Virus record (IMG/VR): IMGVR_UViG_3300025853_012229
Span: 1 to 21,914 of that record
Length of the DNA: 21,914 nucleotides
Direction: 5' to 3' (one strand)
DNA from: a virus
The stretch's first letter is position 1; every line of letters starts with the position of its first letter. Under the pieces are notes generated by a model. The model saw only the letters and a program-made list of their open reading frames with translations. It was not told the origin of the DNA and made no database searches. Positions 39 to 21,914 of the stretch are shown here, piece after piece. The position numbers and the translations under genes were made by a program.

Positions 39-764
39 ATGATTTATATTTTTGATATAGACGGAACATTAACTCCCAGTAGAAACAAAATGGATAAACA
101 ATTTCAAGAATTGTTTAAAAACTTTATATCTACTTATCGTGTATGGCTAATTTCAGGTAGCGACCATACTAAAACAATAGAACAAATAGGTGTTGATATA
201 TGGAAAGATGTAGAAAGAGCTTATCAATGTTCTGGTAATCAACTTTTTCAAAAAGGATCTTTAATTAGAAGTAGTGATTGGGAATTACCTATAGCAACTA
301 GATGGTGTTTAGAGAAATTTTTAGAACAATCTAAATACCCACATAGATATGGAAATCATATAGAAGAAAGACCAGGTATGGTTAATTTCTCTATTGTAGG
401 GAGAGATTGTACTCAAGAACAAAGAGAAGAATACTTTAAATGGGATAATGAACACAAAGAAAGAATTGAATTTTCTAAAGAATTAAAAGAAAGATATCTT
501 GGTTTAGATGCTGTAGTAGGTGGAGAAATTAGTATTGACATTTACCCAAGAGGTAAAGATAAGGGACAAATTGTAGATGAATTAAAAGATGATAAATTTA
601 TGTTTTTTGGAGACAGGCTAGAGCCAGGAGGAAATGATTATTCTATGAAATTAGCTACAATACATAATAAATTAAAAGGTAATGAATTTTTCCATGTAAA
701 AAGTTGGAAAGACACAAGAAATTTATTAATTTCCATAATACAACAAGACGCAGGCATAGTATGA
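39..764 (+). CDS. Eukaryotic-type (HAD-superfamily) phosphomannomutase
   Basis: Likely interconverts mannose-6-phosphate and mannose-1-phosphate in the cytoplasm, the entry step to GDP-mannose. The N-terminal HAD motif FDIDGTLTPSR (residues 5-15) carries the nucleophile D6 and acid/base D8. LISGSD (37-42) fits HAD motif II. The cap region keeps PMM-family segments: RPGMVNFSIVGRD (111-123) and GGEISIDIYP (161-170) followed by KDK. The C-terminal Mg-binding motif GDRLEPGGND is at 191-200. Length 241 matches human PMM2 (about 246), and the order of motifs is that of the alpha-PMM family, not of the bacterial ManB/AlgC mutases. It ends in an ATGA overlap with the next gene. It probably feeds the GDP-mannose 4,6-dehydratase and fucose synthase encoded downstream, but no mannose-1-phosphate guanylyltransferase is visible in this window. 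A general HAD sugar phosphatase is the alternative. Confidence 0.88.
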   Translation: MIYIFDIDGTLTPSRNKMDKQFQELFKNFISTYRVWLISGSDHTKTIEQIGVDIWKDVERAYQCSGNQLFQKGSLIRSSDWELPIATRWCLEKFLEQSKYPHRYGNHIEERPGMVNFSIVGRDCTQEQREEYFKWDNEHKERIEFSKELKERYLGLDAVVGGEISIDIYPRGKDKGQIVDELKDDKFMFFGDRLEPGGNDYSMKLATIHNKLKGNEFFHVKSWKDTRNLLISIIQQDAGIV

Positions 765-1911: not shown

Positions 1912-2322
1912 ATGAGTACATTTATTTACGAACGTACACCGTTCGACATTTTATTTAGAAATTTCTTCCAAGACGGAAGCACCTACAACCCAGTTGTAGA
2001 AACCAAACTTTCCCACCCAGTAGATATTTACACTTCAGACAAAGGGCTAACATTTGAAATTGCCTGTACTGGGATCTCTAAAAATGATATCGAGTTACTT
2101 ACTCAAGATAATGTTTTAAGAGTTAATTATACTAAATCCAAAGATAGTGATAATTTAGATTATATCCATAGGGGTATTGCTAAAAGATCCTTTAATTTAG
2201 GATGGAAAATTGATGGTAAATTCGATTTATCTAAAGCAAATGCAAACTTTGCTGATGGGTTATTAACAATTGAAGTACCATTTTCTAAAGGTTCGGAGTT
2301 AAAAAAGTTACAAATTAAGTAA
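1912..2322 (+). CDS. Small heat-shock protein, Hsp20/alpha-crystallin family
   Basis: ATP-independent holdase chaperone. The 136-residue protein has a short N-terminal arm with aromatic residues (FIYERTPFDILFRNFF region, 4-19). An alpha-crystallin domain spans about 35-123, including the ADGLLTIEVP strand (114-123), equivalent to the family A-x-x-x-G-x-L signature. The tail ends in KLQIK, similar to the I-x-I anchor that links dimers. The gene stands apart from its neighbours: an 88-base gap precedes it and a factor-independent terminator starts right after the stop. It may therefore be expressed as its own short unit. Hsp20 genes are common in marine T4-like phages; here it joins GroES and GroEL nearby, giving the phage a three-protein folding set. 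Confidence 0.9.
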   Translation: MSTFIYERTPFDILFRNFFQDGSTYNPVVETKLSHPVDIYTSDKGLTFEIACTGISKNDIELLTQDNVLRVNYTKSKDSDNLDYIHRGIAKRSFNLGWKIDGKFDLSKANANFADGLLTIEVPFSKGSELKKLQIK

Positions 2323-2669: not shown

Positions 2670-2779
2670 GTAAAGCACGTGGACAATCTTTAATGCGTAA
2701 AGCAAAAAGAATGAATAGGTTTAAAATAACCTCTAATATAGGAAATAAGATAAATACTATAAAAAATAGAAAAAAATGA
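2666..2779 (+). CDS. Small basic protein of 37 residues
   Basis: A short frame that begins MSKARGQSLMRKAKRMNRFK and ends in KNRKK. It overlaps the previous stop as ATGA at 2666-2669 and the GroES start as ATGA at 2776-2779. That double four-base coupling is strong evidence of real translation. About a third of residues are Lys or Arg and there is no acidic residue at all, which suggests nucleic acid or ribosome binding; that is inference. No family is recognised. Confidence 0.6.
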   Translation: MSKARGQSLMRKAKRMNRFKITSNIGNKINTIKNRKK

Positions 2780-3066
2780 GTAAATTAAGACCAGTTAATG
2801 GAAATGTTATCCTTAGACCTATAGAGGAAGAGGAACAAATAGCAGGAAATATTATTATTCCTGATATGGGTAAAGAAAGACCTGAAATGGGAGAGATTGT
2901 AGCAATTTCAAATGTTTATAATTTTAATAAAGGTGAATATGCACCTACAACTTTAGAAGTTGGTATGAAAGTTTTAATTCCAAAAATGGGTGCACAAGCA
3001 ATTACCATTGATGGGGAGGAATATTATATTACATCACAAAATTCAGTTTTATCAATCGTAGAATAA
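2776..3066 (+). CDS. groES: Co-chaperonin GroES-like protein
   Basis: Heptameric lid of the GroEL folding chamber. The 96-residue product has normal GroES length. It opens with LRPVNGNVILRPIEEEEQ (4-21), followed by the mobile loop and the hydrophobic contact IIIPD (26-30), where E. coli has IVL. The family G-E-(I/V)-V-A-(I/V) strand is at 39-44 and a GMKVLIPKMGAQ turn lies near 73-84. The start overlaps the 37-residue gene as ATGA, and its stop TAA overlaps the GroEL start by one base. T4 carries the unrelated-looking GroES substitute gp31 for folding its capsid protein; this phage instead carries a recognisable GroES with its own GroEL. Confidence 0.9.
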   Translation: MSKLRPVNGNVILRPIEEEEQIAGNIIIPDMGKERPEMGEIVAISNVYNFNKGEYAPTTLEVGMKVLIPKMGAQAITIDGEEYYITSQNSVLSIVE

Positions 3067-4706
3067 TGACAGAAACAAGTTTCGGAACAGAATTAAAAAA
3101 TAAGCTTTTAGAGGGAGTTCAAAAGCTTAATAACAGTGTATCATCAACTTTAGGACCTGCTGGAAGAACAGTACTAATTAAAGACGATACTGGTGAAATT
3201 AAAGTAACAAAAGATGGAGTTACCGTTGCAAAAGCATTTAAAGAACTAGAAGATCAAACTGAATCTATAGGTGCCGAGTTAGCTAAAAAAGTATCTACAA
3301 AATGTGCTAATGAAGTAGGAGATGGTACTACAACCTCAACAGTATTAGCTACTGCTATTTTAGAAGAAGGAATTAGACAAATTAATGAAGGTTCTAATCC
3401 TGTAAATATTAAAAAAGGTATAGATGAAGCTGTAGCAACAGTAGTAAATAGACTAAAAGAAATGTCTACTGAAATTACAGACGATATTCAAATTAGAGAA
3501 GTAGCAACTATATCAGGTAATAATGATGTTGAAATAGGTAATTTAATTTCTACTGCTTTAGATAAAGTTGGTAGAGATGGGATTGTTACTATTGAAGAAT
3601 CTAAAACAGGTGAAACTTCACTTGAAGTAGTTGAAGGTATGCAATTTGATAGAGGTTTTAAATCTCCATATTTTGTTACAGATAATAATACAATGCAAGC
3701 TGTATTAGATGATCCTTATATATTAATTTATGATGGTAGAATTACACAAGCATCAGAATTAATTAATGTATTAAATAAAGCGAGTGGTGAATCTAAACCT
3801 ATTTTAATTGTAGCAGAAGATATTGATGGTGAAGCATTAGCAACATTAATTGTTAACAAAATGAGAGGTACTGTTAAAGCAGTAGCTGTCAAAGCACCAG
3901 AATTTGGAGATAGAAGAACTATGGCTTTAGAAGATTTAGCTACAGTTACAGGTGGACAAGTTTTATCTAAAAATAAAGGACATAAACTTGATAAAATGTC
4001 TCCTGTTCAATTTAATGAATTGTTAGGTTCAGCTAGAAAAGTAACAGTTGAAAAAGAAATAACTACTATTATAGATGGTAAAGGTGGAGAAGAAGCTATT
4101 ACTGCTAGAGCTGAAGAAATTAAAACACAACTTGATAATGCTAGTTCTGCATTTGAAAAAGAAAAACTACAAGAAAGATTAGGTAAACTAATCGGTGGTG
4201 TAGCAATTATTAATGTTGGTGGTAATTCAGAAATTGAAATTAGAGAGAAAAAAGATAGAGTAGAAGACGCATTATTTGCTACTAAAGCTGCTTTAGATGA
4301 AGGTATTATAATTGGTGGTGGTACTGCTTTATTATATGCCGCAAATGTTATTAATACAATCTCTGAAAATAAAGATATAGCTATTGGTAGAAGAATTGTC
4401 AAATCAGCTATACAAGAACCATTTTTAAAAATATTAAGTAATGCAGGACATGAAGTAAATGATGTTAGATTTGCATCTTATGGATTAAATGCTGCCGATC
4501 CTAATTTTTGGTTAGGATTAGATTATAAAAGTTTAGAAATGGTTAACTTTAAAGAGTTAGGAATTATTGATCCTAAAAAAGTAACTAGAATTGCATTAGA
4601 AAATGCTGCCTCAATAGCGGGTACTATTCTTACTACTGAATCTGTTGTCTATGAAAAAAGAACAGATAAAGAAGAAGAAACTAACCCAATGGCGGGGATG
4701 ATGTAA
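3066..4706 (+). CDS. groEL: Chaperonin GroEL (60 kDa)
   Basis: ATP-driven folding chamber, 546 residues, full length (E. coli 548). Visible family landmarks are [11 protein letters not shown] (28-38) in the nucleotide site and GDGTTT (85-90) with the Mg/ATP aspartate D86. The apical domain fills the middle. [16 protein letters not shown] holds the hydrolysis aspartate equivalent to E. coli D398, and GGGTALL follows. The C-terminal tail is shortened to NPMAGMM rather than a long GGM repeat. No truncation or missing catalytic residue is seen. It is coupled to GroES and sits between the clamp and clamp-loader genes. Possible clients are the phage major capsid protein or replisome; this is inference. 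Phage GroELs are known but uncommon. Confidence 0.95.
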
Positions 4707-6801: not shown

Positions 6802-7032
6802 ATGGATAAAACTTTATACAAAATGTTAAAATCATCTGCACAAGCAGATAAAGATAAAGCACTATTATCTTTAGAATTATTAGGAAATAAAGCAGTTGGT
6901 ATTGGAGATCACTCAACTGAAGATTTTTACAATAATGCAAACGAAGCACTTACAATGTTAGTCGATGCCGATGATAAATTAAAAGCCTTAGATTATTATT
7001 TTACTCCCTCATCAGATAATTTAAGAGGATAA
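6802..7032 (+). CDS. Small hypothetical protein
   Basis: A 76-residue protein, mostly helical and acidic, with a central VGIGDHSTEDFYNNA segment (about 32-46) and LVDADDKL further on. The look is that of small conserved hypothetical proteins of marine T4-like phages, but I cannot assign a function. The start is AAAAAAATTATG with no ribosome-binding site. Its TAA overlaps the next ATG by one base. Confidence 0.6.
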   Translation: MDKTLYKMLKSSAQADKDKALLSLELLGNKAVGIGDHSTEDFYNNANEALTMLVDADDKLKALDYYFTPSSDNLRG

Positions 7033-7625
7033 TGGAATCAATTTTTAATCAACAGATAGGTATATTTAAAAACGTTGCTTCACAAGAGTTTTGTAATCAA
7101 ATTATAGAAGGATTTGAAAAAAATATTGATAAAACTTATAATAGACAAGACCCAACTTTAAAATCAAAACGTTTATATTCTTCTAGTGCTGATAAAAAAG
7201 ATTTATCTATTGATATAAATGAAATTGATAGAGAATTAGGCCACAAATTTGTAGATAATTGTATAAATCCAACATGGAAATTATATAGAAATAAGTATGA
7301 GATTTTAAATGACCACGGCTTTAAAAATTTTGGAATACATTCTTTAAAAGTTCAAAAAACTAATCCTGGTGGGGGTTACCATACTTTTCATTGTGAGCAG
7401 GGGGCTTCCTTTACAGCCCAAAGATTTGGAGTATATACTTTTTATTTAAATGATGTAGAAGAAGGAGGAGAAACAGAATTTTTATACCAAAATTTTAGGG
7501 TTTCTCCTGAAAGAGGTATGATGTGTTATTTTCCTGCTTCGTGGAGCCACACTCATAGAGGAAATCCTCCACTAAGTAATGTTAAATATATAGTAACAGG
7601 ATGGATGATTTTTAATGAAAAATAA
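7032..7625 (+). CDS. 2-oxoglutarate/Fe(II) oxygenase, prolyl-4-hydroxylase-like
   Basis: Probable non-haem iron hydroxylase of 197 residues. The double-stranded beta-helix shows metal ligands H120 and E122 (FHCE, an H-x-E variant of H-x-D) and distal H173 (FPASWSH). A Lys 12 residues later (K185) is suited to bind the 2-oxoglutarate carboxylate. YLNDVEEGGETEF (138-150) is the typical strand-turn of phage members. The substrate is unknown: a protein side chain, glycan or other. It overlaps the next gene by 11 bases and shares a 48-base identical stretch with the paralog at 8565. Metal and cosubstrate residues are all present, so activity is expected. Confidence 0.85.
   Translation: MESIFNQQIGIFKNVASQEFCNQIIEGFEKNIDKTYNRQDPTLKSKRLYSSSADKKDLSIDINEIDRELGHKFVDNCINPTWKLYRNKYEILNDHGFKNFGIHSLKVQKTNPGGGYHTFHCEQGASFTAQRFGVYTFYLNDVEEGGETEFLYQNFRVSPERGMMCYFPASWSHTHRGNPPLSNVKYIVTGWMIFNEK
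7443..7490 (+). repeat. 48-base perfect direct repeat, copy 1
   Basis: Identical to 8937-8984. It encodes the YLNDVEEGGETEFLYQ segment of the first active-looking oxygenase paralog. Confidence 0.95.
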
Positions 7626-8169
7626 TTTAATACTTACATATAAAAATTTATTTGATAGTAATTTTTGTGAAGAAATTATTAAATTTTTTAATGAAAATTC
7701 TTCTTTACATGAAAGTAGAAATTTTAATACAGTAAAAACTACATTAAAGCTTCAAGATACTTTTTTACCTATAAATTACCAAAACCCTATTATTGAAAAA
7801 TTTTCTTCATCATTTTCTAAATTTATAATGCCTGATTATTTAGGTAAAAATAAAATTAGAAATTTCCATTTATTAAAACTAAACCCTTACCACCAAATTC
7901 AAAAAATCAACCCTACAGAGGGAAAACACTATTTTTATTGTGAAAGGTGTATCCCATCTTCATCTCATTTGGTATTAGGTTATACTTTATTTTTAAATGA
8001 CATAGAAGAGGGAGGAGAATTAGAATTTTTAAACCAATCCCATAGAATAAAAGCCACTCAGGGATCCATTAGTTTATTTCCTGTTGGTTTAACCCATCTA
8101 CAAAGAGATAATACTCCTCTTCAAAATGTTCGTTATACAATGAGTGGATGGTTGGGATATTTTAATTAA
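7615..8169 (+). CDS. Prolyl-4-hydroxylase-like protein lacking a metal ligand
   Basis: A 184-residue paralog of its two flanking oxygenases, with the same fold landmarks: FLNDIEEGGELEF (126-138), LFPVGLTH (154-161) and a final SGW. The distal His (H161) and a 2-oxoglutarate-type Arg (R173) are kept. The first ligand of the H-x-E motif is Tyr (Y108-C-E110), so the iron site looks broken. It may be a binding-only partner of its neighbours, bind metal in an unusual way, or have lost function. The reading frame is intact and overlaps the upstream gene by 11 bases, which argues against simple decay. Confidence 0.75.
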   Translation: MKNNLILTYKNLFDSNFCEEIIKFFNENSSLHESRNFNTVKTTLKLQDTFLPINYQNPIIEKFSSSFSKFIMPDYLGKNKIRNFHLLKLNPYHQIQKINPTEGKHYFYCERCIPSSSHLVLGYTLFLNDIEEGGELEFLNQSHRIKATQGSISLFPVGLTHLQRDNTPLQNVRYTMSGWLGYFN

Positions 8170-8178
8170 ATTATACTT

Positions 8179-8565
8179 ATGAGTGATACTGTAACAAAAT
8201 TTAAAGAAATAAACCAAACTAAGTCAAAACTAACTGCAAGAGATATTTTAAAAAAAGAATATCCCTTAATTTATACATCATATAAAGAAATAATCGATGA
8301 ACAGTTCGAATTATTCGCAAAAAAACATCTTGATTATGGAATGGGTAATGTGTCAGCAGGTACACAACTCGTTAATGATGAAGAAAAAGATTTTGCTATG
8401 ACTGGGTTATGGTATAGATTATCTGATAAGATTAATAGATGGAAGAATATGATATTAACTAGTAGAAAAGTGCAAAATGAAACTCTTATAGACACTTTTC
8501 AAGATATAACAAATTATGGAATAATAGCACAATTAGTTGAAAATAATAAATGGAAAGAAAAATAA
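8179..8565 (+). CDS. Nmad1/DUF1599-type protein
   Basis: A 128-residue protein with the landmarks of DUF1599, named nucleotide modification associated domain 1: HLDYGMGNVS (about 50-59), GLWYRLSDKINRWKNM (about 76-91), and ETLIDTFQDITNYGIIA (about 101-117). The role is unproven; members are common in phages, and a nucleotide or modified-base function has been proposed from gene context. It lies between two oxygenase paralogs. Its TAA overlaps the next start by one base. Related all-alpha nucleotide pyrophosphatase folds are the main alternative. Confidence 0.75.
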   Translation: MSDTVTKFKEINQTKSKLTARDILKKEYPLIYTSYKEIIDEQFELFAKKHLDYGMGNVSAGTQLVNDEEKDFAMTGLWYRLSDKINRWKNMILTSRKVQNETLIDTFQDITNYGIIAQLVENNKWKEK

Positions 8566-9128
8566 TGGAATATATTCATGACCAACATATAGGAATTTAC
8601 AAAAACGGTATGAGTAATGAGTGGTGTGATGCAGTTATAGACCACTTTGAATCAAATATCCATAGGGTAATGAGAAGGAGTGAAGAAGATTTAAAAAATA
8701 ATGTAAAAGACCATTTTCTCCAATTAGAAGATCCTCAATTAATTCATGAATTTAATATTCTTTTTCTTGAAAAATTTTTAAATGCCTATTCTAGTCATTT
8801 TATGTTTTTCCCTTCTAATTTAGACATAAATCATTATCAGATACAAAAAACATTACCAACTGAAGGATTCTTTCCTTACCATTGTGAATATAGAATGGAT
8901 GGAAATTTTTGGAGAAGAGTAGGTGCATATAGTGTATATTTAAATGATGTAGAAGAAGGAGGAGAAACAGAATTTTTATACCAATTAAAAAGAATTAAAC
9001 CTGAAAAAGGAACAGTTTGTATATTCCCAGCTGGTTATACTCATATTCATAGAGGAAACACCCCTTTTTCTGGAGAAAAATATATAATGACAGGATGGCT
9101 TGAAATGCCTCCCGAATATGGAAATTAA
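8565..9128 (+). CDS. 2-oxoglutarate/Fe(II) oxygenase, prolyl-4-hydroxylase-like (second copy)
   Basis: 187 residues from ATG 8565, chosen over an in-frame ATG at 8550 because it gives the TAATG coupling and the same N-terminus type as the paralog at 7032 (ME-x2-x-Q-x-IGI-KN). The metal site is H106-C-E108 and H160 (FPAGYTH), with K172 as likely 2-oxoglutarate ligand and YLNDVEEGGETEF at 125-137. All catalytic positions are present. It is probably related by duplication to 7032, with a 48-base identical stretch. Its 3' end overlaps the nuclease gene by 11 bases. The substrate is unknown. Confidence 0.85.
   Translation: MEYIHDQHIGIYKNGMSNEWCDAVIDHFESNIHRVMRRSEEDLKNNVKDHFLQLEDPQLIHEFNILFLEKFLNAYSSHFMFFPSNLDINHYQIQKTLPTEGFFPYHCEYRMDGNFWRRVGAYSVYLNDVEEGGETEFLYQLKRIKPEKGTVCIFPAGYTHIHRGNTPFSGEKYIMTGWLEMPPEYGN
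8937..8984 (+). repeat. 48-base perfect direct repeat, copy 2
   Basis: Identical to 7443-7490, 1494 bases apart. Identity is interrupted just outside, while the intervening paralog (7615) is diverged at this site, which suggests recent conversion or duplication. Confidence 0.95.
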
Positions 9129-13483: not shown

Positions 13484-14119
13484 ATGGGAATAAGTTTTGC
13501 AATTACAGCTTATAACGAGCACGAGGAATTAAAACAACTACTAACTCAGTTAGTACCAATTATTAAAACTGATGATGAAATTGTTATCCAGTTAGATAAT
13601 AAAGCAACTGAAGAAGTAATTAAAGTTGTTGATTATTATTTTGAAAAATATAATAAAGATATTACTATTAAAAAGACATTTTTTGGTTTAGATAATCATT
13701 TTGCTAATTTTAAAAACAATTTAAAACAACATTGTGCTAAAGATTGGATATTCCAAATAGATGCTGATGAAACTTTAAGTGAAACATTTAGTACTATCAT
13801 ACACCAGGTATTAGAAGCTAATGAAGAAGTTGATTTAATAGCTGTACCTCGTGTTAATATAGTTAAAGGTTTAACCCAAGAAGATGTTATTCAATGGCAT
13901 TGGCAATTAAATAGTCAAGGATGGGTAAATTGGCCAGATAACCAACATAGAATTTTTAGAAACAAACCAGAAATAGGGTGGGTAAATAAAGTACATGAAA
14001 AAATAGTTGGGTGGAAAACTTACGCTGAATTGCCATCTGAAGATGATTCATATGCTTTATACCATATAAAAGATATAGATAGACAAAGAGCACAAAACGC
14101 ATTTTATTCAACAATATGA
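13484..14119 (+). CDS. GT2-family glycosyltransferase
   Basis: A 211-residue GT-A transferase. It begins ISFAITAYNE (3-12), the usual GT2 N-terminus. A DxD-type metal/nucleotide motif lies in FQIDADETLS (90-99). The C-terminal part has the pattern of LPS-type GT2 enzymes (HRIFRNKPEIGWVNKVHEKI, about 155-174), where VHE is characteristic. No membrane segment is seen. It is translationally coupled to the GDP-fucose synthase gene by an ATGA overlap, which supports a role in the same glycan pathway. The donor sugar is unknown. Confidence 0.83.
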   Translation: MGISFAITAYNEHEELKQLLTQLVPIIKTDDEIVIQLDNKATEEVIKVVDYYFEKYNKDITIKKTFFGLDNHFANFKNNLKQHCAKDWIFQIDADETLSETFSTIIHQVLEANEEVDLIAVPRVNIVKGLTQEDVIQWHWQLNSQGWVNWPDNQHRIFRNKPEIGWVNKVHEKIVGWKTYAELPSEDDSYALYHIKDIDRQRAQNAFYSTI

Positions 14120-15021
14120 AAAAGGTATTAATTACGGGGGGTTATGGTATGGTAGGTTCTGCTATGGAATCTCAAATTAAATTATCAAGAGAAACTTGTG
14201 ATTTAACTAACCCTAAACAAACAGAAAAATTATTCCAAATTATTAAACCTGATGGTGTAATACATTGTGCAGGTAAAGTTGGAGGTATAGGTGGAAATTC
14301 AAATTATAAAGGTGAATACTTTTATGATAACTTAATGATTAATACTAATGTAATTGAAGCATCTAGAAAAGCTGGCGTCAAAAACTTAGTAGCATTTTTA
14401 TCTACTTGTGTATTCCCAGATAAAGTAAAATACCCACTTACAGTTGATCAAATTCAATTAGGTGAACCTCATGAATCAAATTACCCATATGCTTATGCTA
14501 AAAGAATGGCTGATGTGCAAATTAGAGCTTATAGAGAACAGTATGGTATAAATTATACGTCAATTATTCCATCTAACATTTATGGTCCAAATGATAATTT
14601 TTCACTAGAACATGGACATGTAATGCCTATGTTAATTCATAAACTATATTTAGCTAAACAAAATAAAACAGACTTTGTTGTATGGGGAAGTGGGAAACCG
14701 TTAAGAGAATTCATATATTCCAAGGATATAGCCAAAATAGCAGAATGGGCTTTATTTAACTATGAAGGTACAGATCCTTTAATTATAAGTGGTGATGAAG
14801 AAATATCAATTAAAGATTTAGTTGGATTATTAGTTGATGAATTTAAATTTAAAGGTAAAGTTGTATTTGATAAAACAAAACCAGATGGACAATTAAGAAA
14901 ACCATCTGATAATTCTAAAATAAAAGAATTACTACCAGATTTTAAATACACTCCATTTGAACAAGGTATAAAAGAAACAGTTAATTGGTTTATAGAAAAT
15001 TATGACACAGCAAGAAAATAA
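14116..15021 (+). CDS. fcl: GDP-L-fucose synthase (or ColC-like epimerase/reductase)
   Basis: Expected to convert GDP-4-keto-6-deoxy-D-mannose to GDP-L-fucose using NADPH. The 301-residue short-chain dehydrogenase (E. coli 321) has the nucleotide motif GGYGMVG (8-14) and the family signature AGKVGGIGGN (52-61). The epimerase acid/base pair is present: C98 in STCVFPD and H168 in GHVMPML. The Tyr-Lys pair is Y125-x3-K129 in YAYAK. These four residues are those of the E. coli enzyme. ColC, which makes GDP-colitose from the 3-deoxy substrate, belongs to the same family, and a 3-dehydratase is encoded nearby, so substrate choice is uncertain. It overlaps the dehydratase gene by 20 bases. Confidence 0.88.
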   Translation: MKKVLITGGYGMVGSAMESQIKLSRETCDLTNPKQTEKLFQIIKPDGVIHCAGKVGGIGGNSNYKGEYFYDNLMINTNVIEASRKAGVKNLVAFLSTCVFPDKVKYPLTVDQIQLGEPHESNYPYAYAKRMADVQIRAYREQYGINYTSIIPSNIYGPNDNFSLEHGHVMPMLIHKLYLAKQNKTDFVVWGSGKPLREFIYSKDIAKIAEWALFNYEGTDPLIISGDEEISIKDLVGLLVDEFKFKGKVVFDKTKPDGQLRKPSDNSKIKELLPDFKYTPFEQGIKETVNWFIENYDTARK

Positions 15022-15985
15022 AGTAGCACTTATAACAGGTATAAATGGTCAAGATGGATCATATTTAGCCGAATTTCTATTAGAAAAAGGTTATGAAGTA
15101 TGGGGTACAATTAAACGTAACTCTGTAGCTGAAAATCAAACATCTAGACTAGATGAAATTTATCCACAATTATTAGGTAAATTACAATATGCTGATTTAA
15201 CAGATTTAGCATCTTTAATTTCTATTATACAACAATGTCAACCAGATGAAATATATAACTTAGCAGCACAATCTCATGTTAGAATTTCATTTGACCAACC
15301 AATTTATACTGCACAGGCAACTGGTATTGGAACATTAAATTTATTAGAAGCAATTAGGTTAACTAAACCTGATACTAAAATGTATCAAGCATCAAGTAGT
15401 GAAATGTTTGGTAATAACATAGATGAAGATGGTTTCCAAAGAGAAACTACACCATTATCCCCAGTATCTCCTTATGGTTGTGCTAAAGTATATTCTTATA
15501 ATATTTGTAATAATTATAAAAATTCTTATAATTTATTTATTTCAAATGGTATTTTATTTAACCATGAATCACCAAGAAGAGGAACTAATTTTGTTACAAA
15601 TAAGGTAGTTAAAACAGCAGTTGAAATTAAAAAAGGATTACGTAATGAATTAGTATTAGGTAATTTAGAGGCAACTAGAGATTGGGGACATGCTAAAGAT
15701 TATGTTAAAGCAATGTGGATGATTCTACAACAAGACAAACCAGATAATTTTGTATGTGCAACTGGTATTTCTCATTCAGTACAAGATTTAGTAGAGTATA
15801 CTTTTAATAAATTAGATTTAGATTGGACCCAATATGTTAAAACAGACGCTAAATACTTACGCCCTGAAGAATTAAAAGATTTAAAAGGTGATTCATCTAA
15901 ATTAAGAGAATTAGGTTGGACAGCTGATTATACATTTGAAACAATGATAGATGAAATGATTGAATATTGGATGGAAATATTATGA
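15002..15985 (+). CDS. gmd: GDP-mannose 4,6-dehydratase
   Basis: Converts GDP-D-mannose to GDP-4-keto-6-deoxy-D-mannose, the substrate of the upstream fucose synthase. The 327-residue protein (E. coli 373) has ITGINGQDGSYLAEFLLEKG (11-30), binding NADP. The catalytic SSSEMFG is at 131-137 and the pair Y158-x3-K162 in SPYGCAKVY. The Gmd-specific NGILFNHESPRRG (182-194) is also present. RDWGHAKDYVKAMW is near 223-236. All are close to E. coli Gmd. The C-terminal end is shorter than in E. coli, but the conserved LRPEELKDLKGDSSKLRELGW region is kept. It ends in an ATGA overlap with the fucosyltransferase-like gene. Confidence 0.95.
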   Translation: MTQQENKVALITGINGQDGSYLAEFLLEKGYEVWGTIKRNSVAENQTSRLDEIYPQLLGKLQYADLTDLASLISIIQQCQPDEIYNLAAQSHVRISFDQPIYTAQATGIGTLNLLEAIRLTKPDTKMYQASSSEMFGNNIDEDGFQRETTPLSPVSPYGCAKVYSYNICNNYKNSYNLFISNGILFNHESPRRGTNFVTNKVVKTAVEIKKGLRNELVLGNLEATRDWGHAKDYVKAMWMILQQDKPDNFVCATGISHSVQDLVEYTFNKLDLDWTQYVKTDAKYLRPEELKDLKGDSSKLRELGWTADYTFETMIDEMIEYWMEIL

Positions 15986-16791
15986 GGTTAAAAATTAAAC
16001 ATTTTGATACTAAAGTATTTGAATCAAAGATGCAACATCTTAAAGATATTGATTTTACATTGTTTGTAGATGACGTACCACAATCCCAAGATGAATTAAC
16101 TGATTTAAATGTTTTAGTATTACAAGAACCAAATGAATATTTTGGCTTACACGATTGGGCAATTCAAAACCAAGATTTATTTTCAATTATATTAACTTGG
16201 GATAATAAAGTATTGAATAATTGTAAGCAAGCGGCATTTTTGCCTTTTGGTCATACTTGGATGACACCTCATTTTTGGAATAAAACTTATGATAAAAAGT
16301 ATCAAGTATCTCATTTAGCAGGTGCTTTAAATAAAACATATGGTCATAGTTTAAGACATGAATTACTAGCTAGAAAAGATGAAATAAAAATAGATAAAGT
16401 ATTTCACCACACCTATGGTAATAGACATGATTTAGAAAATGCTAGAATGGGTAAAGTTGAAATATTCAGTAATAGCCAATATGGTGTAGCAATAGAAAAT
16501 ACATCACATAGGGGATATTTTACAGAAAAAATACTAGATTTATTATTACTAAAAACAATTCCAGTATATTGGGGGTGTTCAAATATAGAAAAACATTTTA
16601 ATACTGCAGGAATTATACGTGTTGAAAATGTAGATGATATAATTTATCAAGTTAATGATCTTTCTCCTCAACTATATGATTCTATATCAGATGTAATAGA
16701 AGAAAATTTCCAATTAGCATTAAAATATGTCGATTATGAACAAAGAATAGTAGATTATATAACTAAAATATTTACAGAAAATGGAATATAA
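15982..16791 (+). CDS. GT10-like (alpha-fucosyltransferase family) glycosyltransferase
   Basis: A 269-residue protein carrying the donor-site signature of family GT10. GVAIENTSHRGYFTEK (168-183) is followed by LLLKTIPVYWG (188-198), matching the fucosyltransferase pattern FEN...YxTEK...G(T/S)VPVY. The N-terminal half (1-130) is the acceptor-binding domain and is not alignable by eye. ATG 15982 is used because it overlaps the gmd stop as ATGA; an upstream TTG is less likely. Following Gmd and Fcl directly, GDP-fucose is the natural donor. No transmembrane anchor is seen, unlike eukaryotic members, so it acts in the infected cell's cytoplasm. The acceptor is unknown. Confidence 0.8.
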   Translation: MRLKIKHFDTKVFESKMQHLKDIDFTLFVDDVPQSQDELTDLNVLVLQEPNEYFGLHDWAIQNQDLFSIILTWDNKVLNNCKQAAFLPFGHTWMTPHFWNKTYDKKYQVSHLAGALNKTYGHSLRHELLARKDEIKIDKVFHHTYGNRHDLENARMGKVEIFSNSQYGVAIENTSHRGYFTEKILDLLLLKTIPVYWGCSNIEKHFNTAGIIRVENVDDIIYQVNDLSPQLYDSISDVIEENFQLALKYVDYEQRIVDYITKIFTENGI

Positions 16792-17407
16792 AATTTCCTC
16801 AGATCAATATTTCTTTAATCCAAAACCACTTACAACTTGGAACCATCACTTTACTAAAAATAATGCATTTAATAGTGAAGAACTAAAAGAAATAGAAAAT
16901 ATGGTTAAAGATAAACCTTTTAAAAAAGGTTTAACTATTGGTCAAGATGAAAACGATGACGATAAAATTATAAATGAAAGTAATTATAGAAAAGTTATTT
17001 ATATAGATCCTAATGACACTAATAAATGGTTATTTCAAAAATTAATTACTTTAGCACTTGAAGCAAATGTAGTAGCATATAATTTTGATATACAAACTAT
17101 TACTGATCCTCTTCACTATGTAGTTTACCCTAAAGATGGAGGCCATCTTGATTGGCATATGGATATAGGAACAGGAGAAGTTAATAACAGAAAAATGGCT
17201 GTGACTGTTCAATTATCAAATCGAGATGAATACGAAGGGGGTCATTTTCAAATTTGGAGGGGAGGAGATCAACAATTTTTAACTGTAAGCAAAAATAAAG
17301 GAGATGCAATTATATTTCCTTCATTTCTAATGCATAGAGTCACTCCAATAACTAAAGGAGAAAGAAAAGCTTTAGTATTTTGGGTTGGGGGTACTCCTTT
17401 TAAATAA
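16781..17407 (+). CDS. 2-oxoglutarate/Fe(II) oxygenase, canonical H-x-D type
   Basis: A 208-residue hydroxylase-type protein, distinct from the H-x-E cluster upstream. The metal ligands are H126-M-D128 and H185 (FPSFLMH), and R195 (TKGER) binds the 2-oxoglutarate carboxylate ten residues later. The glycine pair in EGGHFQIW (152-159) is also family-typical. The N-terminal 100 residues form the usual helical and strand preface. It lies within the nucleotide-sugar block, overlapping the GT10 gene by 11 bases and the methyltransferase-like gene by one base, so a glycan or glycoprotein substrate is possible; this is inference. Confidence 0.85.
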   Translation: MEYKISSDQYFFNPKPLTTWNHHFTKNNAFNSEELKEIENMVKDKPFKKGLTIGQDENDDDKIINESNYRKVIYIDPNDTNKWLFQKLITLALEANVVAYNFDIQTITDPLHYVVYPKDGGHLDWHMDIGTGEVNNRKMAVTVQLSNRDEYEGGHFQIWRGGDQQFLTVSKNKGDAIIFPSFLMHRVTPITKGERKALVFWVGGTPFK

Positions 17408-17898
17408 TGGGATATTGGCCTTATAATATATTATTTGAAAAATATAAAGCAGACTGCACAGTTTTCTTTGAAACAGGAACTTATAAAGGTGATTCAGTAC
17501 AAGATGCTTATGATTTAGGTTTTGAACGTATTATATCAATTGAAATAAATGAAGATTTTTACAATCACTGTATGGAACGTTTTCAACCTTTAGATGCTTG
17601 GGAACAAATAAAATTATTTTTGGGTAGAACAGAGGATAATATTGAAAAATTAGTACAAGAATGGGTTAACGGTAGAGCAATGTTTTGGTTAGATGCCCAC
17701 GAGACTAATAGCCCTTATAAATTAGAAATAGAAGCAATAATGAAACATGAGCGCAATGACCATGTTATAATAATAGACGATATAGACAAGTATGGAATAG
17801 ATACAAATTGGATTAAAGATATCTTGTCTAAGCATAATCCTTTATATACATTTAACACATATGAGAAGAAAAGTTTGGTATGCTCCTTACAAACATGA
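17407..17898 (+). CDS. SAM-dependent methyltransferase-like protein
   Basis: A 163-residue Rossmann-fold protein. TVFFETGTYKGDSVQDA (18-34) corresponds to methyltransferase motif I, ISIEINEDFYNHC (43-55) ends strand 2 with the acidic residue that holds the SAM ribose, and FWLDAHE (about 93-99) plus VIIIDDIDKYG (about 119-129) match proteins with ETGTY...WLDAH...IDD common in sugar loci. It is short, lacking an extended C-terminal domain. A sugar O-methyltransferase would fit the setting. The 3' end overlaps the aminotransferase-fold gene by 38 bases, the longest overlap here. Confidence 0.7.
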   Translation: MGYWPYNILFEKYKADCTVFFETGTYKGDSVQDAYDLGFERIISIEINEDFYNHCMERFQPLDAWEQIKLFLGRTEDNIEKLVQEWVNGRAMFWLDAHETNSPYKLEIEAIMKHERNDHVIIIDDIDKYGIDTNWIKDILSKHNPLYTFNTYEKKSLVCSLQT

Positions 17899-19015
17899 AT
17901 CGTTTGGAGAAGCAGAAATTAAAGCAGTAGAAGAATCACTTAGAGATGGGTGGTTAGCAGGTTTTGGGCCTCGTACTGTAGAATTTGAAGAAAAAATTGC
18001 TAAGGAATTTGGCAAAAAATATGGTGTATTTGTTAATTCAGGTTCATCAGCATGTTTATTAGCATTAGCGGCTTTAGATTTAGAAAAAGGTAGTGAGGTA
18101 ATTACACCCGCACTTACATTTTCTACTACATTAGCCCCTATTTTACAATTAGGATACAAACCTAAATTTATAGATAGCGAATTAATTACTTATGTGCCTA
18201 GTGTATCTACAATTATACGTGCTATTAGTAGCTATACTAAAGCAATCATGGTACCTAATTTAATTGGTAACACCCCTGATTGGGAAGGATTACGTAGCGA
18301 ATTAAAACGTATTGGCAGAGAAGATATCTATGTAATTGAAGATTCAGCAGATACAATTACATATTCACCATCAACAGATGTAGCAACAACTAGTTTTTAT
18401 GCTTCACACGTTATTACAGCTGGTGGAATGGGAGGTATGGTAATGTTTAATGACGAAAAACACGTTAAACGTGCCTTAATGTATCGTGATTGGGGACGTA
18501 TTGGAGATAATAACGAAGATATGAGTGAGCGATTTGCACACGATGTAGATGGTATCCCTTACGACTATAAATTCTTATATGGTGTATTAGGATATAATAT
18601 GAAATGCACTGAAGCATCAGCAGCATTTGGTTTAGTTCAATTAGAAAAATTCCAAACATATAAAGATGTAAGACGTAAGAATATAGAACGTTACTTAGAA
18701 CGTTTAAAAAATATTAAAGAAATAACTTTACCTGATGATAGTAGAAAACCAAATTGGTTAGCTATACCACTACAAACAGAATGTAGATTAGAGTTATTAA
18801 CATTCTTAGAAGAAAACAATATACAAACACGAGTTACATTTGCTGGCAATGTCACTAGACATCCAGCATATAGAGAATATTTACAAGAATTTAAAGTAGC
18901 AGATGAAGTAATGAAAAATGGTTTCTTATTAGGTGCCCACCATGGGATGGACACTTATGATGTAGATTATGTTTGTGATAAAATAGAAGAATTTTTTGGA
19001 TACGATTATGACTAA
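17861..19015 (+). CDS. DegT-fold nucleotide-sugar 3-dehydratase (RfbH/ColD-like)
   Basis: A 384-residue member of the sugar aminotransferase fold in which the PLP-binding lysine is His183 (TSFYASHVITAGGMGG, 177-192). That substitution is the hallmark of the 3-dehydratases ColD and RfbH/AscC (E1), which remove the C3 hydroxyl from 4-keto-6-deoxysugars. Other PLP-site features remain: SGSSA (60-64) and the aspartate in IEDSAD (D161). RDWGR (209-213), LGYNMK (243-248) and RVTFAGNVTRHPAY (324-337) resemble RfbH. However, the four cysteines of the E1 [2Fe-2S] cluster are absent; the loop after RDWGR has none, and the protein has only C65, C249, C308 and C372. Mechanism may thus be ColD-like. It is followed immediately by a 4,6-dehydratase that could supply substrate; GDP-4-keto-6-deoxymannose from Gmd is the other option. 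Confidence 0.82.
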   Translation: MRRKVWYAPYKHESFGEAEIKAVEESLRDGWLAGFGPRTVEFEEKIAKEFGKKYGVFVNSGSSACLLALAALDLEKGSEVITPALTFSTTLAPILQLGYKPKFIDSELITYVPSVSTIIRAISSYTKAIMVPNLIGNTPDWEGLRSELKRIGREDIYVIEDSADTITYSPSTDVATTSFYASHVITAGGMGGMVMFNDEKHVKRALMYRDWGRIGDNNEDMSERFAHDVDGIPYDYKFLYGVLGYNMKCTEASAAFGLVQLEKFQTYKDVRRKNIERYLERLKNIKEITLPDDSRKPNWLAIPLQTECRLELLTFLEENNIQTRVTFAGNVTRHPAYREYLQEFKVADEVMKNGFLLGAHHGMDTYDVDYVCDKIEEFFGYDYD

Positions 19016-19991
19016 ATCAGTATACATAACAGGTTGTTTTGGTTTTATAGGTAGTTATGTAACTAGAGCTTGTTTAGAAAAAGGATGGCACGTTTATGGT
19101 GTTGATAAAATGACATATGCTTCATTTAAAGATGCATATAAAGAATTTGCACAACATCCTAATTTTGAATGGGAAGTTAGTGATATAAATGATTTAGAAT
19201 TTTTACATGAATGTGATTACATAATTAATACAGCTGCTGAAACACATGTTGGTAATTCTATAGTTAAAAGTGAAGATTTTTTACATTCAAATGTAAATGG
19301 AGTTCATAATTTACTTGAATTAATTAGAAATTATAGAGCAGAAGGTAAAGTTAAACCTATATTATTACATTTTTCAACCGATGAAGTATATGGAGATATA
19401 ACCGAAGGTGAACATTTAGAAACTGATTTATTAAAACCTTCTAACCCATATTCAGCAACTAAAGCAGCAGCTGACCAACTAATTACAGCTTGGGGGCGTA
19501 CTTATGATTTACCTTATATAATATTAAGACCAACTAATAATTATGGTATTGGTCAATATGTAGAAAAATTAATACCTAAAGCTACTAAATATCTTTCTTT
19601 AGGTAAAAAAATACCATTACATAATGATGGAACACCAATTAGAAATTGGTTACACGCTAGTGATACTGCTACAGCAGTAATTAAAATAATTGAATCCGGT
19701 GTTAAAAATGAAATTTACAATATTTGTGGAGGTTATGAGCAAACTAATTTGGATACAGTAAGTAAAATTATTAAATTATATTATCCTGATACTGTACTTG
19801 AAAATGATTTTCCATTATATGATCAAGATATAAGCCAATATTTGGATTTATCTTATTCTAGACAAGGTCAAGATGTTAGATATGCTTTAAATGATGATAA
19901 ATTAAGAGCTTTAGGATGGGAACCAAAAGCCGTATTTGATAAAGAGTTACCTGTTATAATTGAATATTATAAAAATAATTTTATATGGTAA
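19008..19991 (+). CDS. RmlB-like nucleotide-sugar 4,6-dehydratase
   Basis: A 327-residue extended short-chain dehydrogenase. It has NAD motif GCFGFIG (9-15), the dehydratase triad segment STDEVYGD (123-130, with T124, D125, E126), and Y148-x3-K152 in NPYSATK. RPTNNYGIGQYVEKLIPKA and IRNWLHASDTA follow as in RmlB. It most likely forms a 4-keto-6-deoxyhexose from a nucleotide-activated glucose; whether the carrier is dTDP, CDP or other cannot be told. ATG 19008 is chosen since it gives MTKSVYITG and an eight-base overlap with the 3-dehydratase; ATG 18996 is possible. Context: precedes the ThDP pair. Confidence 0.83.
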   Translation: MTKSVYITGCFGFIGSYVTRACLEKGWHVYGVDKMTYASFKDAYKEFAQHPNFEWEVSDINDLEFLHECDYIINTAAETHVGNSIVKSEDFLHSNVNGVHNLLELIRNYRAEGKVKPILLHFSTDEVYGDITEGEHLETDLLKPSNPYSATKAAADQLITAWGRTYDLPYIILRPTNNYGIGQYVEKLIPKATKYLSLGKKIPLHNDGTPIRNWLHASDTATAVIKIIESGVKNEIYNICGGYEQTNLDTVSKIIKLYYPDTVLENDFPLYDQDISQYLDLSYSRQGQDVRYALNDDKLRALGWEPKAVFDKELPVIIEYYKNNFIW

Positions 19992-20614
19992 GTAAAGAAA
20001 ATTTAATTGCATTTGAAAAAAAAATAGGTGATAAATTTAACAATGCCGAAATAAAATCACCTATACATCTATATAGTGGAAATGAAGATGAAATTATAGA
20101 AGTATTTAAAGATATTGATATAAAAAATGATTGGGTGTGTTGTACTTGGAGAAACCATTATCAAGGCCTATTAAAAGGTATACCTGCGGAAATAATGGAA
20201 ACTAATATTATAGATGGTAAATCTATGGTAGCTAACCTCCCAGAATATAAATTTATTTGTAGTTCAATTGTAGGGGGTATTCCTCCAATAGCAGCAGGTA
20301 TTGCCTTATCAATTAAACTCCAAAATAAATCAAACCATGTTTGGTGTTGGGTTGGGGATATGAGTGCCGAAACAGGAATATTCCATGAAGCATACAAATA
20401 TAGTTTAAACCATGATTTACCAATTACTTTTATAGTCGAAGATAACCAAAAATCAGTTTGTACTCCTACACCAGATATATGGGGTAGAACTCAACCTTAT
20501 TACCTTGAATCAGAATATAAAGGTGGTATTTTAAGACAAAAAAATTTAATTTATTATCAATATAGTAACGAAAAATACCCTCATGCTGGGGCAGGAGTAA
20601 GAGTACAATTTTAA
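19985..20614 (+). CDS. Miniature ThDP-binding protein, pyruvate dehydrogenase E1-alpha-like
   Basis: A 209-residue protein covering the thiamine-diphosphate PP domain. WRNHYQGLLKGIPAEIM (55-71) matches the E1-alpha HRxH...G..P segment, SIVGGIPPIAAGIALS (94-109) the conserved H-(I/V)-VGG-P.G.G stretch, and GDMSAETGIFHEA (124-136) through EDNQ (N154) the metal/diphosphate motif, usually GDG...NN. Here the third position is Met. E1-alpha subunits are normally about 330-360 residues, so this is a cut-down form. It overlaps the RmlB-like gene by seven bases and is paired with an E1-beta-like gene. In deoxysugar loci such pairs can transfer a two-carbon unit to a keto sugar; that role is inferred. 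Confidence 0.8.
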   Translation: MVSKENLIAFEKKIGDKFNNAEIKSPIHLYSGNEDEIIEVFKDIDIKNDWVCCTWRNHYQGLLKGIPAEIMETNIIDGKSMVANLPEYKFICSSIVGGIPPIAAGIALSIKLQNKSNHVWCWVGDMSAETGIFHEAYKYSLNHDLPITFIVEDNQKSVCTPTPDIWGRTQPYYLESEYKGGILRQKNLIYYQYSNEKYPHAGAGVRVQF

Positions 20615-20618
20615 TTAT

Positions 20619-21155
20619 ATGAAATATCTAGATGAAATAAAAAAGGCAATGAGCTTATTAGCAGAACATCCTAAAACTTATTTTATAGGACAAGCTGTAG
20701 AATATGAAGGAACAGGACTATATGATAGTTTAAAACATATTCCTAGCAGTAAGCGTTTAGAGTTACCTGTAGCAGAACATTTGCAAAGTGGTTTAGCTAA
20801 TGGAATGGCAATTGAGGGGATGATTCCGGTATCTACATTTCCTAGATGGAATTTTTTATTAATGGGTACTGATCAAATTGTTAATCATTTAGATAAATTT
20901 CCTACTATGTCTAATGGGAAGTTAACTCCTAAAGTTATAATTAGAGTAGCTGTTGGAAGTGAATCACCTATTGATCCCCAATGCCAACACAAAGGTAATT
21001 TTACAGAAGCCTTTAAAAGTTTAACTCAAAATCTCGATATAATACAATTAAATGAACCCGAAGACATATTACCATCTTATAAAAAAGCTTTAAATAGGGA
21101 AGATGGTAAAAGTACTATATTAGTAGAATTTGCTGATTATTGTAAAACAAAATGA
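20619..21155 (+). CDS. Miniature ThDP-enzyme PYR-domain protein, E1-beta-like
   Basis: A 178-residue partner of the preceding gene. It corresponds to the PYR domain of E1-beta/transketolase: LELPVAEHLQSGLANGMAIE (47-66) holds the catalytic glutamate E53 that activates the thiazolium. PVSTFPRWNFLLMGTDQIVN (70-89) follows as in E1-beta. The C-terminal transketolase-C domain (about 140 residues in E1-beta) is absent. With the alpha-like gene it would provide one complete ThDP site at a subunit interface. The start lies four bases after the upstream stop with no ribosome-binding site; the stop overlaps the next start as ATGA. Confidence 0.8.
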   Translation: MKYLDEIKKAMSLLAEHPKTYFIGQAVEYEGTGLYDSLKHIPSSKRLELPVAEHLQSGLANGMAIEGMIPVSTFPRWNFLLMGTDQIVNHLDKFPTMSNGKLTPKVIIRVAVGSESPIDPQCQHKGNFTEAFKSLTQNLDIIQLNEPEDILPSYKKALNREDGKSTILVEFADYCKTK

Positions 21156-21914
21156 AAATATTAATAACAGGTAGTAATGGTTTTGTAGGTAGAAATTTAG
21201 TAAAAGCGTTAGAAAAAGATTATGATATCTTTTCTCCTACATCTTCTCAATTAGATTTAACTGATGAAAAATCAGTAGAAGAATATTTACGTAATAAGTT
21301 TTTTGATGTAGTAATTCATTGTGCTATTAAAGGTGGTAGGAGAAATGTAGAAGATTCTGCATTTACACTTCAAGATAATCTTAGAATGTTCTTTAACTTA
21401 ATGAACAATAAAAACAGATTTGATAAATTTATTAATTTCTCTTCAGGTGCTGACTTTGATAAAACTAAAAATGTAAATAACAATAACCACAATTTAAAAG
21501 AAAGTTATCCTACTAAACCATATGATATGTCTAAAAATATCATTAGTAGAGTATTAAAAGATTGTTCTCGTTGTTATAATTTTAGAATATATGGGGTATT
21601 TGGAGTAGATGAAGCTGAAGATAGATTTATACTTTCAAATATTAAAAGATATAAAAACCAACAACCTATGGAAATTCATAAAAATAGGTATTGGGATTTT
21701 ATTTATATTAAAGATTTAGTAAATATAATAAAATATTATATTAATAATCCTACTTTAGATTTAGATAATGAAATGGATTTAGTTTACCAAGATCTTTTAT
21801 CATTAATGGACATAGCAGTAATAATTAATAATTTAGATAGACATAGAGTTGGAATAAAACTAGATAGTAATTCTAGAGATTTAGATTATTTAGGTAACAA
21901 AAGTTTTGGAATTA
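21152..21914 (+). CDS. NAD-dependent epimerase/reductase, partial (continues past the window)
   Basis: An open frame from an ATGA-coupled start to the window edge (254 codons seen, no stop). It is an extended short-chain dehydrogenase: ITGSNGFVGRNL (5-16) binds NAD(P), LDLTD at 35-39, FSSGADFD (96-103) and Y124-x3-K128 in YDMSK are catalytic. It resembles Fcl/RmlD-type reductases in general shape but lacks the Fcl STC cysteine motif, so reduction rather than epimerisation is likely. By position it would be the last step of the deoxysugar route, reducing the 4-keto group; the substrate is not proven. Confidence 0.8.
   Translation, partial: MKILITGSNGFVGRNLVKALEKDYDIFSPTSSQLDLTDEKSVEEYLRNKFFDVVIHCAIKGGRRNVEDSAFTLQDNLRMFFNLMNNKNRFDKFINFSSGADFDKTKNVNNNNHNLKESYPTKPYDMSKNIISRVLKDCSRCYNFRIYGVFGVDEAEDRFILSNIKRYKNQQPMEIHKNRYWDFIYIKDLVNIIKYYINNPTLDLDNEMDLVYQDLLSLMDIAVIINNLDRHRVGIKLDSNSRDLDYLGNKSFGI

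Follow-up and report, generated by a model that had tools for sequence, protein, structure and literature searches.

A phage gene cassette with a short two-subunit thiamine-diphosphate enzyme that probably serves the synthesis of a branched 3,6-dideoxy sugar

Why should a phage encode, amongst genes for nucleotide sugars, two small proteins that resemble the subunits of pyruvate dehydrogenase (PDH) E1? The question is raised by the IMG/VR virus record IMGVR_UViG_3300025853_012229, analysed here as a single window of 21,914 bases that is the whole of the record (for which no completeness is listed). A cassette of five adjoining, coupled open reading frames, all on the plus strand, runs from position 17861 to the window end, and encodes in turn a sugar 3-dehydratase, an RmlB-like 4,6-dehydratase, the alpha and beta subunits of a thiamine-diphosphate (ThDP) enzyme and a short-chain dehydrogenase/reductase (SDR). 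A first-pass annotation of this DNA had suggested a pathway to a branched-chain deoxysugar, a suggestion that gene content, catalytic residues and linkage all support. We propose that the five genes probably make a nucleotide-linked, C4-branched 3,6-dideoxy sugar resembling yersiniose. Gene families, conserved catalytic residues and linkage are read from the sequence; from these we infer the nucleotide, the donor, the branching site, the role of the SDR, the product and its final acceptor.

The alpha protein is matched by Pfam PF00676 (E1_dh, 4e-14) and the beta protein by PF02779 (Transket_pyr, 2.3e-7), with no second Pfam domain in beta, and with a TPP_enzyme_C match in the pair that is weak and below cut-off. 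Comparison of profiles with PDH E1, as proposed at first pass, bears the relationship out: human PDH E1 alpha is reached at 6.9e-17 from a profile built on 78 alpha sequences, and E1 beta chains are reached (best 5.3e-14) from one built on 77 beta sequences. In AlphaFold2 single-chain models (predicted local distance difference test scores of 92.5 for alpha and 94.9 for beta), the predicted folds are likewise those of E1; in the VIA comparison alpha superposes on 1ni4_A with a Z of 18.6 (2.3 Å over 191 residues), and beta on 1um9_B with a Z of 24.1 (1.7 Å over 172 residues). As the latter match covers only residues 4-180 of the 323-residue E1 chain, we conclude, in agreement with Pfam, that the C-terminal domain of beta is missing; for alpha, the final aligned pair with 3exh_A (VIA) is alpha residue 200 with E1 alpha residue 263. 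By these alignments, the pair retains only the catalytic part of PDH E1.

Within that part the ThDP-site residues are conserved. Alpha residues H28, R56, H58, G124, D125, N154 and H200 are invariant across 83 of 83 viral copies, as are E53 and H124 of beta across 82 of 82, and in an alignment to human PDH E1 alpha H28, R56, H58, D125 and N154 each stand opposite a like residue. We take the human E1 equivalents of alpha H28, R56, H58, D125, N154 and H200 to be H63, R90, H92, D167, N196 and H263, and those of beta E53 and H124 to be E59 and H128. In 44 bacterial alpha rows, some of which are weak matches, residue 125 is Asp 31 times, Glu 12 times and Gly once. The ThDP ligands and catalytic Glu of the E1/transketolase superfamily can thus be recognised in the pair, and the ThDP site postulated in the first-pass annotation is supported in part, with its residues invariant in the viral rows and each modelled subunit predicted to fold like E1.

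The same annotation would have the pair group apart from the E1 of central metabolism, and here too the evidence is favourable. In a tree of 72 alpha rows (the fused cyanophage genes described below were left out), 60 short alphas form one branch (97/97; length 1.51) away from nine E1 rows and three transketolases, with the program's warning that long branches make such deep placement rough. Twelve chosen cassette alphas form an all-viral branch (100/100), and the copy at locus L004 falls with the branch of fused forms. One viral contig (L018, 16324-17465) carries a second alpha/beta copy, which clusters with a bacterial row and has its own His-type ColD-like DegT alongside. Of 11 bacterial or archaeal genomes that carry a short alpha, eight have in addition a long E1_dh match (>230 bits); in a ninth (G019) the sole long match lies in a 968-aa frame, probably a 2-oxoglutarate dehydrogenase, and the E1_dh search of the other two (G018 and G023) gave none. 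Tree placement, subunit size and the separate long E1 of most of these genomes led us to reject a central-metabolism PDH E1. In short, the pair shares with the E1 of PDH and branched-chain keto acid dehydrogenase the pyrophosphate (PP) and pyrimidine (Pyr) domains, the ThDP site and, in what we take to be the human numbering, the H63- and H263-type histidines of alpha and the H128-type histidine of beta, but lacks the beta C-terminal domain and the part of alpha beyond the loop histidine, and forms a separate clade.

What, then, would be its acceptor? The gene 1 product is matched by Pfam PF01041 (DegT/DnrJ) at 1.2e-72, and its best PDB match is 3bcx, the Yersinia dehydratase RfbH (also termed E1), at 191.7 bits, against 135.6 bits for ColD. 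As in RfbH and ColD, a histidine (His183) replaces the pyridoxal-phosphate lysine, and histidine holds this position in 78 of 78 aligned viral DegT rows (one being the window's own copy); an ordinary aminotransferase was rejected on this ground. The review PMC8987622 gives the Lys-to-His change as the mark of the 3-dehydratases E1, ColD and SpnQ, of which E1 and SpnQ, but not ColD, hold a [2Fe-2S] cluster, ColD being recharged with glutamate. At the four iron-sulphur (Fe-S) columns all 55 long relatives (~440 aa) have Cys, whereas the window protein has Ala163 and gaps there; the 11 window-type rows (~380 aa, window counted) have none of the four cysteines, and the remaining viral rows are two truncated long ones and nine other ColD-like ones. 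To judge from these columns, two kinds of dehydratase, with and without Fe-S cysteines, occupy one and the same slot of the cassette. Because the Fe-S ligands are missing, the window's enzyme would follow a ColD-type cycle, and probably works hydrolytically with recharging by glutamate. It shares the DegT fold and the His-for-Lys exchange with RfbH, to which it is nearest by score, but differs in the absent Fe-S ligands; with ColD it shares the exchange and the lack of a cluster, although its sequence is still nearer RfbH.

It is gene neighbourhood in bacteria that argues most strongly for action of the pair after such a 3-dehydratase. We read all 42 DegT matches in ten bacterial genomes (a non-random sample): beside the short alpha, the DegT protein was His-type in 10 of 10 cases, whilst elsewhere in these genomes 29 of 32 had Lys, two His and one Ser (Fisher's test, 10/10 against 2/32 His, p 4.5e-8). 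In Prochlorococcus marinus MIT 9314 (L120, L237) the pair adjoins a His-type RfbH-like dehydratase without the Lys and, 5-7 kb off on the strand of the pair, stand an SDR, a CDP-glucose 4,6-dehydratase (433.3 bits, cut-off 278) and a glucose-1-phosphate cytidylyltransferase (439.9 bits, cut-off 300). Such genes supply the precursor steps to cytidine diphosphate (CDP)-4-keto-3,6-dideoxyglucose, which is the acceptor of YerE (PMC12247030).

More widely, a scan of species genomes found the bacterial or archaeal pair at no fewer than 53 loci, including Pelagibacteraceae, SAR116, Nitrospira, Prochlorococcus, Verrucomicrobia and two archaeal records. Among the matches listed, 33 of 34 DegT rows at these loci are His-type; the exception, at L114, stands 7 kb from a pair whose locus also has a His-type protein. 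Frequent neighbours, again among the matches listed, are GHMP kinases, nucleoside triphosphate (NTP) transferases, B12-dependent radical SAM proteins and SDRs. Homologues thus do keep nucleotide-sugar neighbours, above all the His-type 3-dehydratases and, in Prochlorococcus, the CDP-glucose gene pair. A B12-binding radical SAM protein lies near the pair in 25 of 53 loci among the matches listed (for example L118, 13311-14855), which suggests a further modification such as methylation.

A similar picture emerges from uncultured viruses, for which we took the best 80 of 100 relatives from an IMG/VR scan with alpha and counted genes within the fetched stretch, many loci being cut by contig ends. 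Beta is present at 79 of the 80 loci, a close RmlB-like relative (>300 bits) at 74, an SDR at 73 and a DegT relative at 68; all five occur together at 57, on which basis chance clustering was rejected. In 81 of 83 copies alpha adjoins beta, and in 64 beta adjoins the SDR. The first-pass annotation had looked for one conserved gene order: the set recurs, but its order varies, the commonest arrangements (dehydratase-RmlB-alpha-beta-SDR, or dehydratase-alpha-beta-SDR-RmlB) differing by lineage. That the genes stay together even as their order is shuffled speaks for a shared pathway. Where the flank holds no DegT gene (12 loci), a full-size one (436-454 aa) lies further off on the same contig in four cases, a clear piece in one and a weak 33-residue tail in one, and the other six are short records of 5-23 kb; the distant proteins of L215-L217 are His-type with Fe-S cysteines, that of L214 gave no pattern match, the piece (L218) is His-type, and L219 has the weak tail. 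At three loci a protein that reads as methyltransferase-like is encoded between the RmlB-like and alpha genes (L013, 9289-9990; L044, 9280-9981; L051, 9292-9996).

The first and last steps would fall to genes 2 and 5. The gene 2 product is matched by GDP_Man_Dehyd (1.8e-53), by 2hun in the PDB (best, 221.9 bits) and, as best NCBIfam family, by TIGR01181, the thymidine diphosphate (dTDP)-glucose 4,6-dehydratases, at 294.7 bits; it reaches only 61.9 bits against the CDP-glucose 4,6-dehydratase family. TDE and Y-x3-K motifs are present in its translation, and we take both to be motifs with a role in RmlB-type dehydratases. By these scores, dTDP is the favoured nucleotide of the phage pathway. Among 12 cassette-bearing phage records, RmlA-like genes occur in two (320 and 250 bits, under the cut-off of 361) and NTP transferases in five, from which we gather that the RmlA gene lies mostly outside the available phage records. 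The gene 5 product is matched by PF01370 (Epimerase, 1.9e-27) and PF04321 (2.8e-15), with Tyr124 and Lys128 in 74 of 74 SDR rows, and is presumed from its family to be a ketoreductase acting on the branch. Of the coupled five-gene pathway initially described, all five frames and families are borne out; the fifth gene is truncated by the window end and encodes an extended SDR, for which the role of reductase is our reading.

Synthesising these findings, we suggest a model for the pathway. The RmlB-like enzyme would convert dTDP-glucose to dTDP-4-keto-6-deoxyglucose, from which the His-type, pyridoxamine-phosphate-dependent dehydratase would remove the 3-hydroxyl (in the hydrolytic manner of ColD here, and by the Fe-S type with host electrons in most relatives). 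Alpha and beta, with ThDP, would then decarboxylate pyruvate and attach the acetyl-anion equivalent so formed to dTDP-4-keto-3,6-dideoxyglucose at its C4 ketone; the SDR would reduce the ketone of the branch, giving a 4-C-(1-hydroxyethyl)-3,6-dideoxyhexose; and glycosyltransferases would place the branched sugar on an acceptor of the virion or the host surface.

The model has two precedents. YerE, of yersiniose A synthesis in Yersinia, adds a pyruvate-derived unit to CDP-3,6-dideoxy-4-keto-glucose (PMC12247030), and the likeness extends from the 3-dehydratase product as acceptor, through the ThDP-dependent two-carbon addition, to the presumed later reduction of the branch (PMC12247030, PMC4753412). 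YerE is, however, a single-chain TPP-dependent flavoprotein of acetolactate-synthase type (PMC4753412, PMC10338323) with a CDP-linked acceptor; the phage cassette, by contrast, encodes two short subunits of E1 type together with an RmlB-like dehydratase. Membership of the YerE group was rejected, two genes of E1_dh and Transket_pyr type being the wrong architecture.

The second precedent is that of the E1-like pairs (alpha-KADH2), which introduce the sugar branches of aldgamycin, kibdelomycin and other compounds and seem to have specialised in C2 branches; ~120 clusters are known (PMC12247030). AviB1/AviB2, Pau11/Pau12 and KbDH-alpha/beta resemble our pair as E1-like alpha and beta genes beside nucleotide-sugar genes, with action of pyruvate on ketones proposed or shown; Pau11 and Pau12 are AviB-like, with the ketoreductase acting next (PMC4425429, PMC4753412), and EvdU5/EvdS3 have been hypothesised to act in the route to eurekanate (PMC10338323). 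Pau11 and Pau12 have 325 and 345 aa as against 209 and 178 aa here (AviB1/AviB2 were compared by description only), the paulomycin route uses a 2,3-dehydratase, and known AviB-type pairs belong to specialised natural products such as antibiotics. The cassette, then, works as we read it like YerE or AviB1/AviB2, yet fails the architectural tests for both. The literature searched, mostly as listings and passages, yielded no description of this pair or cassette in a phage; rfbH/ddhC has been listed with the metabolic genes of marine viruses (PMC10653327), and viruses that infect sargassum bacteria have been noted to carry rfbH (PMC11295528).

Could the pair use a different donor, or branch a different carbon? 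In this alternative it would still be a carboligase acting on a keto-deoxysugar, with a transketolase-like hydroxyacetyl unit or (as for ErwE) a longer 2-oxo acid as donor, or with branching at C3. For miharamycin and amipurimycin, split transketolases have indeed been proposed, the donors favoured by ErwE are longer ones, and C3 is the carbon branched by some E1-type pairs (PMC12247030); the cyanophage relatives of our pair are annotated as 'transketolase central region'. Against this, fold and sequence lie nearer E1 than transketolase (the split transketolase in VIA gives a Z of 14.4 with alpha and 18.4 with beta, as against 18.6 and 24.1, and transketolase and 1-deoxyxylulose-5-phosphate synthase rows as a group score ~14 and 17-19), the E1-type histidines are kept, and the apparent C2 specialisation of E1-type pairs, noted above, points the same way; we regard this alternative as unlikely.

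Several observations weigh against a pathway of the kind we propose. Two family scores fall under their cut-offs: that of gene 1 for NF011936 RfbH (252 bits, cut-off 423; the L031 relative reaches 463), and that of gene 2 for TIGR01181 (cut-off 365). The SDR, incomplete in the window, could act elsewhere. Within the fetched stretch, 6 of the 80 viral loci have no close RmlB-like relative and 7 no SDR, and among the matches listed 20 of 53 bacterial or archaeal loci have no His-type DegT. No Fer2-type reductase was found in the 12 cassette-bearing phage records, some of which are fragments, and the Fe-S-type dehydratase relatives therefore probably use host electron donors. Two His-type DegT proteins stand away from the pair: one in Prochlorococcus 14 kb off and one, window-like, on another contig in Pelagibacter (G014; L235, 8334-9536; 403 bits to the viral profile), around which no alpha or beta match was found in the 15 kb read, and which has an RmlB-like gene ~4.4 kb away. 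These stray proteins and the CDP-glucose genes of MIT 9314 weigh in opposite directions, such that our confidence in the proposed pathway is unchanged. Lastly, the literature searched, again mostly in excerpt, gave no assay of a short alpha/beta pair.

Isolated phages add a further qualification. Amongst 50,697 deposited phage records (a search that may leave out records very near the window's own genome), six, representing three distinct genomes, have an alpha relative, at most 39% identical. In cyanophages S-SM2 and P-TIM68 homologues of alpha (35-39% identical) and beta (33-37%) are fused in one gene that lies in a sugar-gene island; its neighbours differ from ours, being a Zn-alcohol dehydrogenase (which adjoins the fusion in both phages), a carbohydrate kinase and a phosphoheptose isomerase, and no DegT match was found within ~14 kb on either side. 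This too counts against our proposal and implies that the pair is not bound to 3-deoxy sugars everywhere. Fusions of ~400 aa, those of the two cyanophages among them, were seen at L002 (13986-15194), L003 (13983-15191), L135 (9986), L136 (9986) and L133 (2630), with a His-type DegT 7 kb away in L135. Close alpha relatives were not found in plasmids; the 15 listed of 63 records are 26-32% identical, and the annotated ones bear the names of E1 or ThDP enzymes. The impression that a complete set was new for a T4-like phage fits the deposited records, although uncultured viral contigs commonly carry the cassette, and the fused relative, with other neighbours, occurs in isolated cyanophages.

The same phages lend some colour to a second alternative, that the cassette makes a plain 3,6-dideoxyhexose whilst the ThDP pair catalyses another reaction (formation of acetaldehyde or acetoin, or another carboligation): in Synechococcus phages RB11-B and S-H68 the pair is absent although RfbH-like and dehydratase- or epimerase-like genes are present, and two cyanophages have the fused form with no 3-dehydratase nearby. 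The pair stands between or beside dehydratase and SDR genes in most viral loci, however, and in bacteria whose gene sets differ it is again found with His-type dehydratases, and we consider such a division of labour quite improbable beside the branched-sugar pathway.

As to the nature of the window itself (Table 1), it encodes two clamp-loader proteins (phrog_168, 2.6e-77; phrog_225, 6.8e-16), weak matches to a processivity factor (sliding clamp, 1.3e-6) and to the Gp44 lid, and a PD-(D/E)XK nuclease; the clamp-loader pair with the processivity-factor and lid matches makes 'T4-like' a fair description. That phages passively carry a host polysaccharide cassette, or that these are mis-binned bacterial contigs, is scarcely credible: bacterial relatives do lie among sugar kinase, nucleotidyltransferase and SDR genes, but against this stand the clamp-loader, sliding-clamp and nuclease matches, the all-viral branch of cassette alphas, dN/dS values of 0.04-0.12 for the four complete cassette genes (window against L006) and a one-phylum sample in which 2 of 249 genomes (one being the Pelagibacter at the sample centre) have an alpha relative, at 52-54% identity.

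Within the cassette, the overlaps between neighbouring genes are of 8, 7 and 4 bases, with a gap of 4 bases from alpha to beta; the first of these overlaps assumes that gene 2 begins, as is likely, at the ATG within the end of gene 1, the mechanical frame (18996-19991) starting from a TTG at 18996. Upstream lie genes which, by family, make up much of a GDP-L-fucose (guanosine diphosphate) route, the GDP-mannose 4,6-dehydratase-like protein scoring 396.8 bits for TIGR01472 (cut-off 415). Four 2-oxoglutarate (2OG)-Fe(II) oxygenase-like genes near the sugar genes, one of them below cut-off, may possibly serve in hydroxylation of protein or sugar, and Hsp20-, GroES- and GroEL-like proteins are also encoded.

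Table 1. Cassette genes and other features of the 21,914-base window (NDP, nucleoside diphosphate).
Feature	Position	Strand	Length	Predicted product
Gene 1	17861-19015	+	384 aa	RfbH/ColD-like NDP-4-keto-6-deoxyhexose 3-dehydratase, DegT fold
Gene 2	19008-19991	+		RmlB-like dTDP-glucose 4,6-dehydratase (likely ATG start)
Gene 3 (alpha)	19985-20614	+	209 aa	ThDP subunit, E1-type PP domain; stops right after the E1 loop histidine
Gene 4 (beta)	20619-21155	+	178 aa	ThDP subunit, E1-type Pyr domain alone
Gene 5 (SDR)	21152-21914	+	254 aa, incomplete at window end	Extended SDR, RmlD/epimerase type
Sugar gene	39-764			PF03332, eukaryotic-type phosphomannomutase
Sugar gene	14116-15021			GDP-fucose-synthase-like SDR
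Sugar gene	15002-15985			GDP-mannose 4,6-dehydratase-like protein
Sugar gene	15967-16791			GT10 fucosyltransferase-like protein
Oxygenase	7032-7625			2OG-Fe(II) oxygenase-like
Oxygenase	7615-8169			2OG-Fe(II) oxygenase-like
Oxygenase	8550-9128			2OG-Fe(II) oxygenase-like
Oxygenase	16781-17407			2OG-Fe(II) oxygenase-like
Chaperone	1912-2322			Hsp20-like
Chaperone	2776-3066			GroES (Cpn10)-like
Chaperone	3066-4706			GroEL (Cpn60)-like

More broadly, and with a confidence that falls a little short of even, we speculate that the pair represents an undescribed, minimal family of ThDP carboligases (387 aa in total, with a single PP and a single Pyr domain) that, in phages and bacteria of the environment, follows on from His-type 3-dehydratases and acts on dTDP-, CDP- and perhaps GDP-linked acceptors. 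In uncultured phages, at least partly T4-like, the pair would serve to make a dTDP-linked yersiniose-like octose, destined for the phage's own virions or for a new coat on the infected cell; in some lineages the Fe-S dehydratase would have given way to an Fe-S-free enzyme with no need of an electron donor.

If the proposed pathway is right, the pair would be a further enzyme architecture for the two-carbon branching of sugars, small enough to attract interest as a biocatalyst, and phages would gain a route to a type of sugar hitherto known from O-antigens and antibiotics. Phage glycan islands would thereby be linked, testably, to a defined chemical product; and wherever a short alpha/beta pair adjoins a 3-dehydratase of His type, as in Pelagibacter, SAR116, Nitrospira, Prochlorococcus and further bacteria, branched 3-deoxy sugars would be predicted.

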